Shown: piece by piece, positions 728 through 14,363 of the stretch
Layout of the letters: each line of letters starts with the position of its first letter
How positions within the stretch are numbered: the first letter of the stretch is position 1
Virus record (IMG/VR): IMGVR_UViG_3300004461_000558
Location: 1 to 22,517 of that record
DNA length: 22,517 bases
Reading direction: 5' to 3' (one strand)
DNA from: a virus
Program-made: the position numbers and the translations under genes
The notes under the pieces: generated by a model
What the model was told of the DNA's origin: nothing
Seen by the model: only the letters and a program-made list of their open reading frames with translations
The model's database searches: none

Positions 728-973
728 TTAACCGTAGTGCCAGCGATAGAGCATATTGTCTATCAAATCCTCGGCATCTTCTTGGCCCAACTCTGTAGCA
801 GATCTGAGAAATTTAATTGCTTCACAAGTTTCAAGCGCTTCTAACAGGTCTAATAACTTATTATGCTCCTCTTCAGAAATATAAATAAAGTTTTTAAATC
901 TTGGGCCATATGCTAAAATTACAATCTGTACAGGTTTAGGTTTTTTCTTTCTGAAAATATCTAAAAAACTCAT
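728..973 (-). CDS. small hypothetical protein, last gene of operon B
   Basis: The 81-aa product is unrecognised. It has a basic N-terminal patch (FRKKKPKP, residues 7-14), then a mixed strand-helix pattern with an acidic helical stretch EEEHNKLLDLLEALE (34-48). No signal peptide or membrane segment is seen. The start codon overlaps the stop of the upstream gene as ATGA, typical of translational coupling. It is the last gene before the strong hairpin terminator. Confidence 0.75.
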   Translation of the reverse strand: MSFLDIFRKKKPKPVQIVILAYGPRFKNFIYISEEEHNKLLDLLEALETCEAIKFLRSATELGQEDAEDLIDNMLYRWHYG

Positions 974-1533: not shown

Positions 1534-2223
1534 TTAGCTAGCTTTCTTATGCGTCATCAAGTTAGATAACTTGCTTTCCGCTTGCTCGATTCCGTCAAGT
1601 GCAGCGTTGAATTCAGTGATAACTTTGCGAAGCTCAGCCGCAACAGTTTTCTTTTCCTCATCACTGAGATTACCTTGCAATTCTCTGAAGTTCTTCAATT
1701 GCTTGGTTACTGCCTTCGTGTAAGTGCTCACTTTCTTACTTACAGAAGGTTCAACTTCTTGTCCCTTCCTAGCTTCTTTTCCCTTTTTAGCTGTATCGAT
1801 GAAAAGCTGATACAGTTGATCAACCTTGCCCGTCTTCAACATCGCGTAATACTTTGCACGATCTAGATCATCCACGGCCTTGTAGGCCTTCGGAGTGTAA
1901 TTGTGCTTAACTATTCCGCTAGTTCCATCGACGGACAGGTTAATTCCCATTACATTCTTAGATATGACTGCTAGTTTATTTTGCATATCCACACCAAAAC
2001 CTGCACTATGTTTAACCAAAGAGCTATACAGCAATGCCACGGTATTGGTCATTCTAGAATGTTCTTCGAAGTATTCGAAATTCTCAGCGATAACCGCCCC
2101 GAATTCGATACCTTGCATTGATTTAAGCTTGGTTACAAACTTAATAATTTTATTTTCACAACGTTTTCTAGCGTCTTGGACAGACTCTTTTGCAACGTCA
2201 GTCTTGTTTTTTTCTTCGTTCAT
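1534..2223 (-). CDS. hypothetical helical protein, first gene of operon B
   Basis: The 229-aa product is unrecognised. It is highly charged and largely helical by composition. A possible coiled-coil region near the C terminus (about 165-222) contains the stretch NLSDEEKKTVAAELRKVI. No membrane segment, signal peptide or catalytic motif stands out. ATG at 2223 has AAGGTAG 8-14 nt upstream. It is the longest of the leftward genes and heads operon B. A T7-like promoter candidate (2323-2345) and nested inverted repeats (2281-2322) lie in its roughly 105-nt leader, so it may be tightly controlled. A structural or DNA-associated role is possible but unproven. Confidence 0.85.
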   Translation of the reverse strand: MNEEKNKTDVAKESVQDARKRCENKIIKFVTKLKSMQGIEFGAVIAENFEYFEEHSRMTNTVALLYSSLVKHSAGFGVDMQNKLAVISKNVMGINLSVDGTSGIVKHNYTPKAYKAVDDLDRAKYYAMLKTGKVDQLYQLFIDTAKKGKEARKGQEVEPSVSKKVSTYTKAVTKQLKNFRELQGNLSDEEKKTVAAELRKVITEFNAALDGIEQAESKLSNLMTHKKAS

Positions 2224-3562: not shown

Positions 3563-3910
3563 TTACACCTCACTATTATTGTTGTCAAGCGGGTACATTA
3601 AGAAACCTTCAAGTGCTATATCATCCGTCTCGCGGTCGATGTAGCAGCACTCCTCAGCACAGTAATACCAGTCGCCAGTACCGTCCTTATTGAGATCATA
3701 AAGCTCAATCTCATGCATAGTGCGGATAGCTAACGGTGAGAGATTGTCGCGAATCTCTAAAGCTTTATCAACCTCTAACATAGTCTTTTCAAAAAAGTTT
3801 CTAATGTCTTTGGTCCTGCGCCTTTCGCGAATGTAGTCTTCGATAGGCTTTGAAGATAATGGCGTGGCTGTCATTTGTTTAAGTGCTTCGTCTTCAGTTA
3901 GTAATATCAT
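3563..3910 (-). CDS. hypothetical protein, possible EF-hand-like loop
   Basis: The 115-aa product is unrecognised. The N-terminal half is helical and charged (YIRERRRTKDIRNFFEK near 26-42). Residues 72-83 (DLNKDGTGDWYY) resemble a calcium-binding loop with D, N, D, G at the usual places but without the final Glu. They are followed by a Cys cluster, CAEECC (84-89). The acidic C terminus ends in NNNSEV. The ATG has GGAAG about 10 nt upstream. The first codons overlap the end of the -1 frame extension of the preceding gene. Confidence 0.75.
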   Translation of the reverse strand: MILLTEDEALKQMTATPLSSKPIEDYIRERRRTKDIRNFFEKTMLEVDKALEIRDNLSPLAIRTMHEIELYDLNKDGTGDWYYCAEECCYIDRETDDIALEGFLMYPLDNNNSEV

Positions 3911-4025
3911 GTTGGTCTACTTCCATTACAGTGTGAATAAAATTCAGTTCTTTAATAGCTTCGTGCATGTCAATCGTACCACTCTCAAGCTGAACATGCA
4001 CGTTCTTCGTTAGCTTGAGTTTTAC
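3894..4025 (-). CDS. -1 frame extension of gene 4022-4441
   Basis: After a -1 slip on A AAA AAG, translation would resume at GTA (4025-4023) and continue for 43 codons to TGA (3896-3894). The product would be a 182-aa fusion. The added segment starts VKLKLTKNVHV and contains IDMHEAIKELNFIHTVMEVD, a plausible helical domain. The frame fills the gap between the zero-frame stop and the next gene and overlaps the latter by 17 nt. It could instead be an independent 35-codon gene from GTG 4001, but that start has only a weak ribosome binding site. Confidence 0.6.
   Translation of the reverse strand, partial: VKLKLTKNVHVQLESGTIDMHEAIKELNFIHTVMEVDQHDITN
3962..4019 (-). promoter_or_regulatory. H-type RNA pseudoknot, frameshift stimulator
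   Basis: In minus-strand RNA order: stem-1 arm CTCAAGCT (4019-4012), 9-nt loop, stem-2 arm CGTGCATGT (4002-3994), 2 nt, stem-1 partner AGCTTGAG (3991-3984), 13-nt loop, stem-2 partner ACATGCACG (3970-3962). Stems of 8 and 9 perfect pairs interleave with loop lengths that can span the grooves. The structure starts 5 nt after the slippery heptamer, within the usual window for stimulators. Confidence 0.7.
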
Positions 4026-4441
4026 TTTTTTAGATATTCACCTACTAAGCTGCGACTGTAAGATTCTAAACTATCTAAGCACAGAATGATAGTGTTTAAT
4101 GTGCTCACATTTAGAGGCTTCTCACATGACACTATCGCATCACACTTGCGATACACATGCAAAGGTTTGTGCTCATCGTCTCCGTAGTAAAGCGAGATAC
4201 TATAGTGTTCTTCTATCATGTTCAGTATCTCTGTATCGGTTGGCATCCTATCCTCAAACACATGTGTAGCGCAAGTGTTTTCCTTGAATGATCGTATTTG
4301 TTCTTTCACTTCCTCGATGTTAGTCGAGTGCCTTGGCATCACGATAGGTGTTTTGCATGATACGGACGTATCGTAGAGCTTGACACATTTCAATGCTGTA
4401 AGTGAGTGTGCTCTAGTGTTAGTGGTTACTAGGAATTTCAT
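4022..4441 (-). CDS. hypothetical protein, first gene of operon A, frameshift site at end
   Basis: The zero-frame product is 139 aa and unrecognised. It has mixed alpha/beta composition, five Cys residues (positions 19, 29, 57, 106 and 121) and a central helical stretch STNIEEVKEQIRSFKENT (39-56). ATG at 4441 has AAGG about 11 nt upstream. No membrane segment or known motif is seen. The reading frame ends in CTA AAA AAG TAA, a slippery heptamer touching the stop, followed by the pseudoknot. It therefore probably encodes two proteins, 139 and 182 aa. Codons for YYGDDE contain copy 4 of the 12-bp repeat. It is the first gene leftward of the divergent control region, so it is probably expressed early (inference). 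Confidence 0.8.
   Translation of the reverse strand: MKFLVTTNTRAHSLTALKCVKLYDTSVSCKTPIVMPRHSTNIEEVKEQIRSFKENTCATHVFEDRMPTDTEILNMIEEHYSISLYYGDDEHKPLHVYRKCDAIVSCEKPLNVSTLNTIILCLDSLESYSRSLVGEYLKK
4025..4031 (-). promoter_or_regulatory. -1 frameshift slippery heptamer A AAA AAG
   Basis: The heptamer is phased with the gene as CT[A AAA AAG] and is followed at once by TAA. It is the same sequence as the well-known bacterial -1 slippery site of dnaX, which allows both tRNAs to re-pair after slipping back one base. The stop codon next to it and the pseudoknot 5 nt downstream complete the signal. Confidence 0.75.
4177..4188 (-). repeat. 12-bp repeat CGTCTCCGTAGT, copy 4
   Basis: This copy lies inside gene 4022-4441, where it encodes YYGD. 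The reading phase differs from copy 3. Confidence 0.8.
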
Positions 4442-4585
4442 AGTGTTTATACCTTATTAAACTTGTGCATATCAATTGGTTGTACGAAATACAATGCATG
4501 AGGTGTGCCAATATTAATAAATGTATATAAATCAATGACTTGGCGCATGTGTACGTAAATGAGGTATAGATATAAATGTACCGAG

Positions 4586-4634
4586 AGGTAACGTAAGTTG
4601 TAACATAAGGTAACATAGGTAACATTTAGGTAAC
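4586..4634 (+). repeat. AGGTAAC iteron array
   Basis: AGGTAAC occurs at 4586, 4608, 4617 and 4628, and the variant TTGTAAC at 4598, giving steps of 12, 10, 9 and 11 bp. Near-helical spacing places the sites on one face of the DNA, as in initiator or regulator binding arrays. The binding protein is unknown. Confidence 0.7.
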
Positions 4635-5111: not shown

Positions 5112-5441
5112 ATGCCTAGTTCTAAGAATTATGTAAGAGATTACAAACAAGAGAGAAAGACTCAGTTAGCCAGAGAAGGCCTAGAGCCTGATCGTAAGCG
5201 TGCTCAAGCTCAGCGTAACGCTAAGAAGAGTGGTAAGCGTACAACTGGTGATGGGAAGGATACAGGACATAAGAAGTCACTGAAGAGCGGTGGATCGTCT
5301 AGTAACTCCAATCTGAGAGCAGAGTCTAGATCTTCCAATAGGTCTAATGGTGGGAAGTCAGGTTCGAGGGCTGGTAAAGCAGCTGGAGCGAGAAAAGGAC
5401 ATGCCTCTCGTCGAAAGAATAGTACTAAGAAGAAGGGTTAA
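5112..5441 (+). CDS. HNH-like small basic protein
   Basis: The 109-aa product is extremely basic. Residues 46-80 (GDGKDTGHKKSL, then GGSS, NLRAESRSSNRS) follow the pattern of compact phage HNH-type proteins: a His, GG, a conserved NLR, then an S..NR motif. The usual form has Asp just before the His (DH); here it is Gly (GH), so metal binding may be weakened or lost. The C-terminal tail is Gly/Lys/Arg-rich. In other phages such proteins often lie near the terminase genes and assist packaging-related cleavage (known for the family). Here the terminase is 3.5 kb downstream. A plain nucleic-acid-binding role is the alternative. Confidence 0.55.
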   Translation: MPSSKNYVRDYKQERKTQLAREGLEPDRKRAQAQRNAKKSGKRTTGDGKDTGHKKSLKSGGSSSNSNLRAESRSSNRSNGGKSGSRAGKAAGARKGHASRRKNSTKKKG

Positions 5442-5442
5442 T

Positions 5443-5952
5443 ATGTGGAATAAGATTACCAAGACTGTCGCTGCTGTTGTAGTATTCGTCTCTATCATGT
5501 TGCTTATGATTGACTCTGCTAGGGCTGATCAAGGTGATCCTTCAATGACTATTGGTCTCGGTCATACTATCAACCATAGTTCAGCTACAGTTCATGACCT
5601 TACCTTCTCAGGGTTCTATGATAAAATAGGTCACTGGGATACTCAGTTGAGATTGGTAGGAGAAGGAGATACTAAGAATGGATTCCAAGAACAGTTCCAA
5701 TCTATCAGCATCTCTCGGGTAATAGACCCTGGTTGGAGTATAGGTCCAGTTGACTTCAAGTCTAGAATTGGATATGTGTACTCTCCAGATTCAGTTCTTA
5801 TTGGTGACACTAACTTCCGACTAGGGATTATAACTTCCTGGTTTGATGGCTTGTTCACTATTGAAGCAGCTCACGACTCCAGCGCAAGCTTGTGGGACCC
5901 TAATACAGGCCTTGACGGAATACACTTAGGAGTACCGATCTCATGGTATTAA
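5443..5952 (+). CDS. PagL-like lipid A deacylase family protein
   Basis: ATG at 5443 follows the upstream stop by 1 nt with GAAGGG just before it (169 aa); a longer frame from 5347 overlaps the HNH-like gene and is rejected. Residues 1-28 form a Sec signal peptide ending SARA. The mature part alternates polar and hydrophobic residues like a small outer-membrane beta-barrel and ends in an aromatic, ISWY. The C-terminal motif AHDSSASLWDPNTGLD gives H144 and S146, and D158 falls 14 residues after the His. That is the spacing of the PagL catalytic triad His-Ser-Glu, with Asp for Glu. PagL enzymes remove the 3-O acyl chain of lipid A in the outer membrane. A role in changing the host surface, blocking superinfection or aiding lysis is inferred. 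Confidence 0.65.
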   Translation: MWNKITKTVAAVVVFVSIMLLMIDSARADQGDPSMTIGLGHTINHSSATVHDLTFSGFYDKIGHWDTQLRLVGEGDTKNGFQEQFQSISISRVIDPGWSIGPVDFKSRIGYVYSPDSVLIGDTNFRLGIITSWFDGLFTIEAAHDSSASLWDPNTGLDGIHLGVPISWY

Positions 5953-6344: not shown

Positions 6345-6941
6345 ATGCCTAAGATAACCTTAGAAGATGCTGTATCGGGGTACAGATCTAACGCTACAGT
6401 GAATGCCAATAACGATCTTATCGAAGAAGCGTTGAACAACGGAGTATTGTATAGAAACAACCCTACTGGTGAACCTAACCAGATGTTGAATCCTCTAGAC
6501 ATGAACTCTAATGCCATCATTAATGTTGGCGTATCAGACGCTAGCAGTTCTCTAGTGACTAGACAAGATCTAGCTGACCTTATAGGGAATGTAGCAGCTT
6601 CTCCTGTACTCTCGGATATAGCAGACAGACAGATATATGTAGACCAGACATCAGATGTTACAGCCACATTGGACTATTCTTATGGATATGTCAGGTTTGT
6701 ATCTGTCGGTCCAGCAAGCTTCATCGTCCCATCTAGCGGATCTTATGATTTCATGTTAGGGACAGAGATACACGTTCGACAAGCAGGTACAGGGATAATC
6801 TCTATAGTAGAGGATACTGGCGTAACTGTCAACCCTCCATTTGGAGGATCTCTTGTATTGGCCGGACAAGGTGCCACAATCACTGTCAAGAAAGTGGGGA
6901 CAGATGAGTGGGATCTTATGGGACAGGTGTTCGCAGCGTAA
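6345..6941 (+). CDS. tail fibre-type protein, N-terminal adaptor pattern
   Basis: The 198-aa product begins with the pattern seen at the start of many podovirus fibres and spikes: NANNDLIEEALNNGVL (about 20-35), then NQMLNPLDMNSNAIINVG (45-62), i.e. 'pN.M...LDMN.n.I.N'. This part usually anchors a trimeric fibre to the tail. The rest is beta-rich and repetitive (SFIVPSSGSYDFMLGTEIHV; GTGIISIVEDTGVTV), resembling the wall of a fibre or a small decoration domain. It starts immediately after the holin stop and overlaps the next start as TAATG. The receptor specificity cannot be read. Confidence 0.65.
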   Translation: MPKITLEDAVSGYRSNATVNANNDLIEEALNNGVLYRNNPTGEPNQMLNPLDMNSNAIINVGVSDASSSLVTRQDLADLIGNVAASPVLSDIADRQIYVDQTSDVTATLDYSYGYVRFVSVGPASFIVPSSGSYDFMLGTEIHVRQAGTGIISIVEDTGVTVNPPFGGSLVLAGQGATITVKKVGTDEWDLMGQVFAA

Positions 6942-13397: not shown

Positions 13398-14363
13398 ATG
13401 ATTACTCGCGATACTAACCTCGCTTTCCTCGAAGCGCAGCAGTATTCACAGTACCTTCTTCGAAACTTGTACGATGGATTACTTCCTACAAATTTTTATC
13501 GTAACGTTTCAGATTTCGGCACTGGGTCTACTTTAAACATCAAAACTATTGGTGAAGTTACTTTACAGGACATCACTGAAGACGAAGATTTCCAATACAA
13601 TCCAATCGAGACTGGCTCAGTTACTTTAAGTATTACTGATTACCCAGGCGACGCTTGGTATGTAACTGATGAGTCTCGACAAGACTTGAGTCAAGTTGAA
13701 GCACTTAATGCAGCACGAGCAGAAGCTGGTAAACGTGCTTTCCAAGAACACTTTGAAAGTCGTTTCCTAAGTGTTATGAACTCAGCTCAAACAGCTGGCG
13801 CAAATAATGCTGTAAATGAGTTTGCTCATCGTTTCCGCGCAAGTGGGACTAACCAGACTATCGCTGAAAAAGACTATATCGATATGCGACTAGCTTTCGA
13901 TAAAGCTAACGTTCCTGTTGGTGGTCGAATTGCTATTGTAGATCCTGTTGCAGCAGCATCATTGTCTAAGCTAGCAACTCTTACAACTAATATGGACGCA
14001 GTTGGCGAAGCTTACTCTCTTGCAAAAGATGGGTTTGATCGTGAACATGCATTTGTAACTATGTTCCACGGCTGGCAGATCTGGACTTCTAATCGTCTAC
14101 CTACCGTAACAGGTGAAACTCTATCTCTATTTGACGGAACTTCATCAGCTTCAACTTCAGGTAAAGCTAACATCTTCATGTCTATGGCAGATGATAACAC
14201 TAAACCTGGAATGGTTGCTTGGCGAGCAATGCCAAGTGTAGAAACTGATCGAGATATGGACAAGCGACGTGACAAGTTCACTATGGCTGGCCGTTTCGGT
14301 ATTGGCGCACAGCGTCTTGATACTCTCGGTGTTATTGTTTCTTCTGCAACTGCAACTGAATAA
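13398..14363 (+). CDS. major capsid protein
   Basis: The 321-aa product lies right after the scaffold with a good Shine-Dalgarno (AAGGA). It has the organisation of an HK97-fold capsid: an N-terminal arm, an E-loop-like beta region (TLNIKTIGEVTLQDITEDED, about 43-62), a long spine-helix candidate (LSQVEALNAARAEAGKRAFQ, about 95-114) and C-terminal A-domain strands. All of the roughly 20 Arg codons read here are CGN (CGT, CGA, a few CGC). Neighbouring genes use many AGA/AGG, so translation is probably selected for high yield. It ends 12 nt before the probable decoration protein, and both lie before the terminator at 14881. Confidence 0.88.
   Translation: MITRDTNLAFLEAQQYSQYLLRNLYDGLLPTNFYRNVSDFGTGSTLNIKTIGEVTLQDITEDEDFQYNPIETGSVTLSITDYPGDAWYVTDESRQDLSQVEALNAARAEAGKRAFQEHFESRFLSVMNSAQTAGANNAVNEFAHRFRASGTNQTIAEKDYIDMRLAFDKANVPVGGRIAIVDPVAAASLSKLATLTTNMDAVGEAYSLAKDGFDREHAFVTMFHGWQIWTSNRLPTVTGETLSLFDGTSSASTSGKANIFMSMADDNTKPGMVAWRAMPSVETDRDMDKRRDKFTMAGRFGIGAQRLDTLGVIVSSATATE

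Follow-up and report, generated by a model that had tools for sequence, protein, structure and literature searches.

Identification of a probable frameshift site

At the end of the first ORF in the leftward arm of a phage genome, an A-rich heptamer adjoins the stop codon, and two interleaved inverted repeats follow it. This raised the question of whether the gene is decoded into a single protein or, by a -1 shift of the ribosome, into two proteins of different length. The window (the whole stretch of DNA analysed, 22,517 nt of IMG/VR record IMGVR_UViG_3300004461_000558) was searched for the elements of such a shift, and the features located are listed in Table 1. Taken together, they indicate that the locus very probably carries a genuine -1 programmed ribosomal frameshift of the dnaX/IS3 type, with predicted products of 139 and 182 aa.

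Read on the minus strand, the order of elements was GTAGGTGAATATCT AAAAAAG TAA AA CTCAAGCT AACGAAGAA CGTGCATGT TC AGCTTGAG AGTGGTACGATTG ACATGCACG. The zero-frame codons across the heptamer were CTA AAA AAG TAA, which is the X_XXY_YYZ phase, and the heptamer occupied codons 137 to 139 of the 139-codon ORF with TAA following at once. The -1 frame was blocked upstream by a TGA (4040-4038) and open from 4037, so any shift must fall within 4037-4025, where the heptamer sits. Translation of the -1 frame gave VKLKLTKNVHVQLESGTIDMHEAIKELNFIHTVMEVDQHDITN before a TGA (3896-3894), and a shifted product would thus have 139 + 43 = 182 aa. The original prediction of an in-phase slippery heptamer at the gene end, a 5-nt spacer, stems of 8 and 9 bp, loops of 9, 2, and 13 nt, and a -1 frame open for 43 codons was exact in every coordinate and length. 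It had also proposed that this frame bridges exactly to the next gene; the open frame does reach that gene, but the two overlap by 17 nt (ATG at 3910-3908).

Table 1. Features of the candidate frameshift locus and its surroundings (positions in the window).
Feature	Position	Strand	Basis or remark
Zero-frame ORF, 139 aa	4022..4441	(-)	First ORF of leftward arm; orphan
Slippery heptamer A_AAA_AAG, in phase	4025..4031	(-)	Read from sequence
Zero-frame stop TAA, adjoining heptamer	4022..4024	(-)	Read from sequence
Spacer between heptamer and pseudoknot, 5 nt	4020..4024	(-)	Read from sequence
Pseudoknot stem 1, 5' arm CTCAAGCT	4012..4019	(-)	Inverted repeat
Pseudoknot stem 1, 3' arm AGCTTGAG	3984..3991	(-)	Inverted repeat
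Pseudoknot stem 2, 5' arm CGTGCATGT	3994..4002	(-)	Inverted repeat
Pseudoknot stem 2, 3' arm ACATGCACG	3962..3970	(-)	Inverted repeat
SD-like AGGTG, putative upstream stimulator	4039..4043	(-)	Motif and distance rule of PMC4066793
-1 frame extension, 43 codons (VKLKL...HDITN) and TGA	3894..4025	(-)	Translation, codon statistics
Next ORF, 115 aa, possible translational-coupling target	3563..3910	(-)	Start overlaps extension end by 17 nt
Sigma54-like -24/-12 element TTGGCAC-N5-ATGCA, putative promoter of 139-aa gene	4495..4511	(-)	Element and spacing shared with relative L082

The pseudoknot and its expectation by chance

The interleaved repeats correspond to an H-type pseudoknot in which all 8 pairs of stem 1 and all 9 of stem 2 are Watson-Crick. 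With 9 and 13 nt, the two longer loops have the length needed to cross the helices. To estimate how often such a structure arises by chance, H-type pseudoknots with L1 of 1-15, L2 of 0-5, and L3 of 2-25 nt were counted in 2,503 dinucleotide-preserving shuffles of the window (56.4 Mb). Stems of 7 and 7 bp were found 461 times, stems of 8 and 8 bp 32 times, and stems of 8 and 9 bp five times, corresponding to a chance of about 5e-7 per heptamer when six spacer positions are allowed. The genes in the window contained 12 in-phase heptamers, only two of which were A_AAA_AAG, giving a whole-window expectation of about 6e-6. In the window itself, a pseudoknot with 7/7-bp stems occurred nowhere else; the single plus-strand match was the same site in reverse. 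All four elements said to agree independently in the original prediction (heptamer, spacer, pseudoknot, open -1 frame) are present, and their joint occurrence is far beyond chance.

As a natural control, every heptamer that was preceded by 40 or more open codons, lay close to a zero-frame stop, and was followed by 25 or more open codons in the -1 frame was collected from the window and related phage loci (3.26 M strand-bases). Among the 202 candidates, the site at 4031-4025 was alone in combining a strongly slippery motif with a pseudoknot. A TTTTTTC in locus L043 had a minimal 6/6 knot at a spacing of 10 and lay opposite a coding strand. Of the other A6G sites with open -1 frames in relatives, those inspected (L108, L132, and L043) proved to be neighbouring genes that start at an ATG of their own and lack a pseudoknot, and these were rejected as frameshifts.

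Stacking energies were -14.6 kcal/mol for stem 1 and -17.1 kcal/mol for stem 2. Over the same bases, the best nested fold reached -14.4 kcal/mol, versus a rough estimate of -19.5 kcal/mol for the whole pseudoknot with a Dirks-Pierce-like penalty. The pseudoknot faces competition from a nested fold without stem 1, whose z-score was modest (-1.55); since the nested fold is thus unremarkable, the argument is carried by the interleaved perfect repeats and not by folding energy. No tRNA genes were found in the window.

Putative stimulatory elements around the heptamer

When combined with the stimulators of IS911 or IS3, A_AAA_AAG ranks in the top three motifs for efficiency in E. coli, and stimulatory structures are placed 5-8 nt downstream of the heptamer (PMC4066793), a range that includes the 5-nt spacer observed here. 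Upstream, AGGTG at 4043-4039 lies 8 nt before the second base of the heptamer motif. SD-like stimulators, in a list that includes AGGKG, have been described as experimentally proven at 6-17 nt upstream (PMC4066793), and AGGTG agrees with both the list and the range. In the leftward genes, 9.4% of codon-phase positions carried SD-like motifs by chance, so AGGTG by itself is weak support, but no start codon is present at RBS distance that it could serve.

Coding-like character of the extension

The 43-codon extension looked like protein-coding sequence. Its codon positions were heterogeneous in composition (p 4e-4, compared with shuffles without in-frame stops), and only 1 of the 43 codons began with T (p 5e-5). 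The codon-position signal persisted in the part downstream of the pseudoknot alone (p 0.013). In addition, the -1 frame had the highest codon-usage score of the six frames and was the sole open one.

Proposed mechanism

Ribosomes translating the 139-aa ORF would reach A_AAA_AAG with AGGTG behind them, which could pair with the 16S rRNA tail, and the pseudoknot ahead, which could block entry of the mRNA. The ribosome would then pause with lysyl-tRNAs on AAA and AAG, and the heptamer would be prone to shifting because tRNA-Lys re-pairs well on AAA. Some ribosomes would slip back by one base, pair again on AAA AAA, and continue to give 182 aa, and the remainder would terminate at the adjoining TAA to give 139 aa. 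The two proteins would share an N terminus and differ by the 43-aa C-terminal extension. A frameshift rate in the tens of percent is plausible where a single tRNA-Lys reads both codons. We infer both the slippage itself and the use of the two products from these sequence elements.

Shifted ribosomes would end 12-16 nt past the ATG of the next gene. The shift may therefore also couple translation of the 115-aa gene, which is a plausible second role.

Alternative explanations

Four other readings of the locus were weighed. A sequencing or assembly error, in which the true run is A7, the ORF is one continuous frame of 182 aa, and the heptamer is an artefact, would account for the coding character of the extension. 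The sequence is a single metagenomic contig without reads, and homopolymers are common sites of indel errors. However, A6 is short for such errors, and an error would explain neither the SD-like element nor a pseudoknot with perfect stems at the canonical spacing of 5 nt (chance about 5e-7); we regard an error as very unlikely. Slippage of the polymerase on the A run, instead of a shift of the ribosome, could likewise yield the long product, as A-rich runs are able to cause either event (PMC3711429). Transcriptional slippage has been described for A runs longer than 7 (PMC3711429), whereas the run here is A6, and it would need neither the pseudoknot nor the SD element. This origin of the long product seems extremely improbable.

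Pseudoknots control some phage and ribosomal-protein mRNAs. With the structure located 50-110 nt ahead of the next gene's ATG (3910), it could be a regulatory RNA of the 115-aa gene, acting in translation control or mRNA processing, with the heptamer and the open frame incidental. Nevertheless, the pseudoknot starts 5 nt past an in-phase, highly slippery heptamer that falls inside the 13-nt stretch permitting a shift, coding periodicity is found in the -1 frame, and no Rfam family matched anywhere in the window, leaving only a very slight chance for a regulatory RNA. None of these three readings is as good an account as ribosomal frameshifting. The chief purpose of the shift could also be the coupling of translation to the next gene, with the 43 residues themselves non-functional. 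The end of the extension just past an ATG whose SD is weak is in favour of this, but the codon-position signature of selection at the protein level is against it. Coupling as the main purpose is improbable, and it is compatible with the frameshift proposed here rather than exclusive of it.

Homologue searches

Searches of IMG/VR, GTDB species genomes, 50,697 phage records, PHROGs, Pfam, PDB, and 84 related viral records gave no relative of the 139-aa protein. A search for relatives of the 115-aa neighbour also returned none, and the DNA pattern of heptamer plus stem 1 had no match in viral_contigs. L004, L082, and L086, the nearest relatives whose sequence extends past the shared genes on the upstream side, either carried other first genes there or ended too soon. 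The single-sequence AlphaFold2 model of the 139-aa protein had a pLDDT of 34 and was not used.

Comparison with known frameshift systems

The layout is closest to those of IS3 and dnaX. E. coli dnaX has the same A_AAA_AAG, an upstream SD-like element, a downstream structure, and two products with a common N terminus. In contrast, its downstream structure is a hairpin instead of a pseudoknot, and its shift leads to the shorter product, whereas the longer one would result here. In the IS3 family (IS3, IS911), A-rich heptamers flanked by stimulators on both sides (a pseudoknot in IS3) direct a -1 shift that gives the longer product. An IS3-family orfA/orfB pair was nevertheless rejected for this locus: transposase features (an OrfA helix-turn-helix, OrfB DDE domains) had no Pfam or PHROG match in either ORF, and the extension comprises 43 aa rather than a catalytic domain.

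In phage tail chaperones of the lambda G-GT type, ribosomes that move to the -1 frame close to the end of a short gene produce a minor, C-terminally extended form, and a shift near the 3' end of the T7/T3 gene 10 capsid gene also gives an extended protein (PMC5009743). The present locus resembles both in the position of the predicted shift and the C-terminal extension, and the G-GT case also in the shortness of the gene. Unlike lambda G-GT, the gene belongs to a podovirus-like genome and is encoded in an arm on the strand opposite all structural genes; together with the absence of a tail chaperone family match for the 139-aa protein, this led us to reject a tail assembly chaperone frameshift. 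Unlike T7/T3 gene 10, the shifted gene is unrelated to the capsid gene, which is located at 13398-14363 (+).

Of 2,476 annotated frameshifts in SEA-PHAGES, 2,397 were in tail chaperones and the remaining 79 in hypothetical proteins (PMC10885494). The proposed mechanism is thus an established one, the -1 programmed frameshift. Its setting, a non-structural gene of a Zobellviridae-like phage, is unusual, since tail chaperones make up the great majority of annotated phage cases. Most documented DNA-phage frameshifts serve tails or capsids, and they are rare in a small, probably early gene of this kind. With the full stimulator set of SD-like element, A_AAA_AAG, and H-type pseudoknot, a small orphan gene heading a non-structural arm would widen the known use of frameshifting, and the 43-aa extension would escape gene callers.

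The phage and the promoter region

The terminase was 55-57% identical to those of marine podophages, including 55.5% to that of Methylophilales phage MEP401, which is annotated as Zobellviridae. Judging from this similarity, the phage appears to be an uncultured, marine-type, Zobellviridae-like one. Terminase, portal, capsid, and tail genes were all directed rightward. As far as visible, the earlier description of the 139-aa gene as small, non-structural, and of no assigned function holds: the gene is placed in the leftward arm, apart from the structural genes, and has no family match or homologue in the collections searched. It is probably an early gene, considering its position, the promoter-like region just upstream, and its absence in relatives. 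Tentatively, the frameshift might set a fixed isoform ratio in an early, host-facing regulatory gene and couple the next early gene, thus acting in takeover control and not in virion assembly, though we consider this unlikely.

In the promoter-like region, five GTTAC repeats (4588-4634, minus strand; gaps 11, 9, 10, 12) precede the sigma54-like element, which has the GG-N10-GC pattern. The same element was found in L082 (6716, minus strand), with repeats at 6798-6840 at gaps of 12, 8, 10, and 12. The distance from the last repeat to TGGCAC was 82 nt in both, though the downstream gene in L082 differs. This arrangement suggests an early promoter of sigma54 type with an activator array, or a phage-specific promoter resembling one. 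TTGGCAC-N5-[AT]TGC was also present in two more distantly related phages, L088 (4305, minus strand) and L031 (6854, minus strand), where a TCATTGATTT or TTTATATACATTT block precedes it; in L031 it lies ahead of a leftward 183-aa ORF. The bare motif was not clearly commoner over all loci than a rough chance estimate.

Neighbouring genes

An 81-aa protein (728-973, minus strand) showed a very weak resemblance, below the cut-off (E 0.07), to the ribosomal L7/L12 C-terminal domain. The 229-aa protein encoded at 1534-2223 (minus strand) matched phrog_11658 (E 1e-6), the sole family match among the leftward-arm genes scanned. It has a like-sized counterpart in L082 (20% identical); a sequence search with the 229-aa protein returned no relatives.

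On the plus strand, a 171-aa protein (5437-5952) without a Pfam match is encoded between two conserved genes and has, by eye, a likely signal peptide. The corresponding slot is empty in L082, and in L004 (1573-1935) it holds a protein that by eye resembles an M15-type peptidase. This position is an exchangeable slot, which may be related to lysis.
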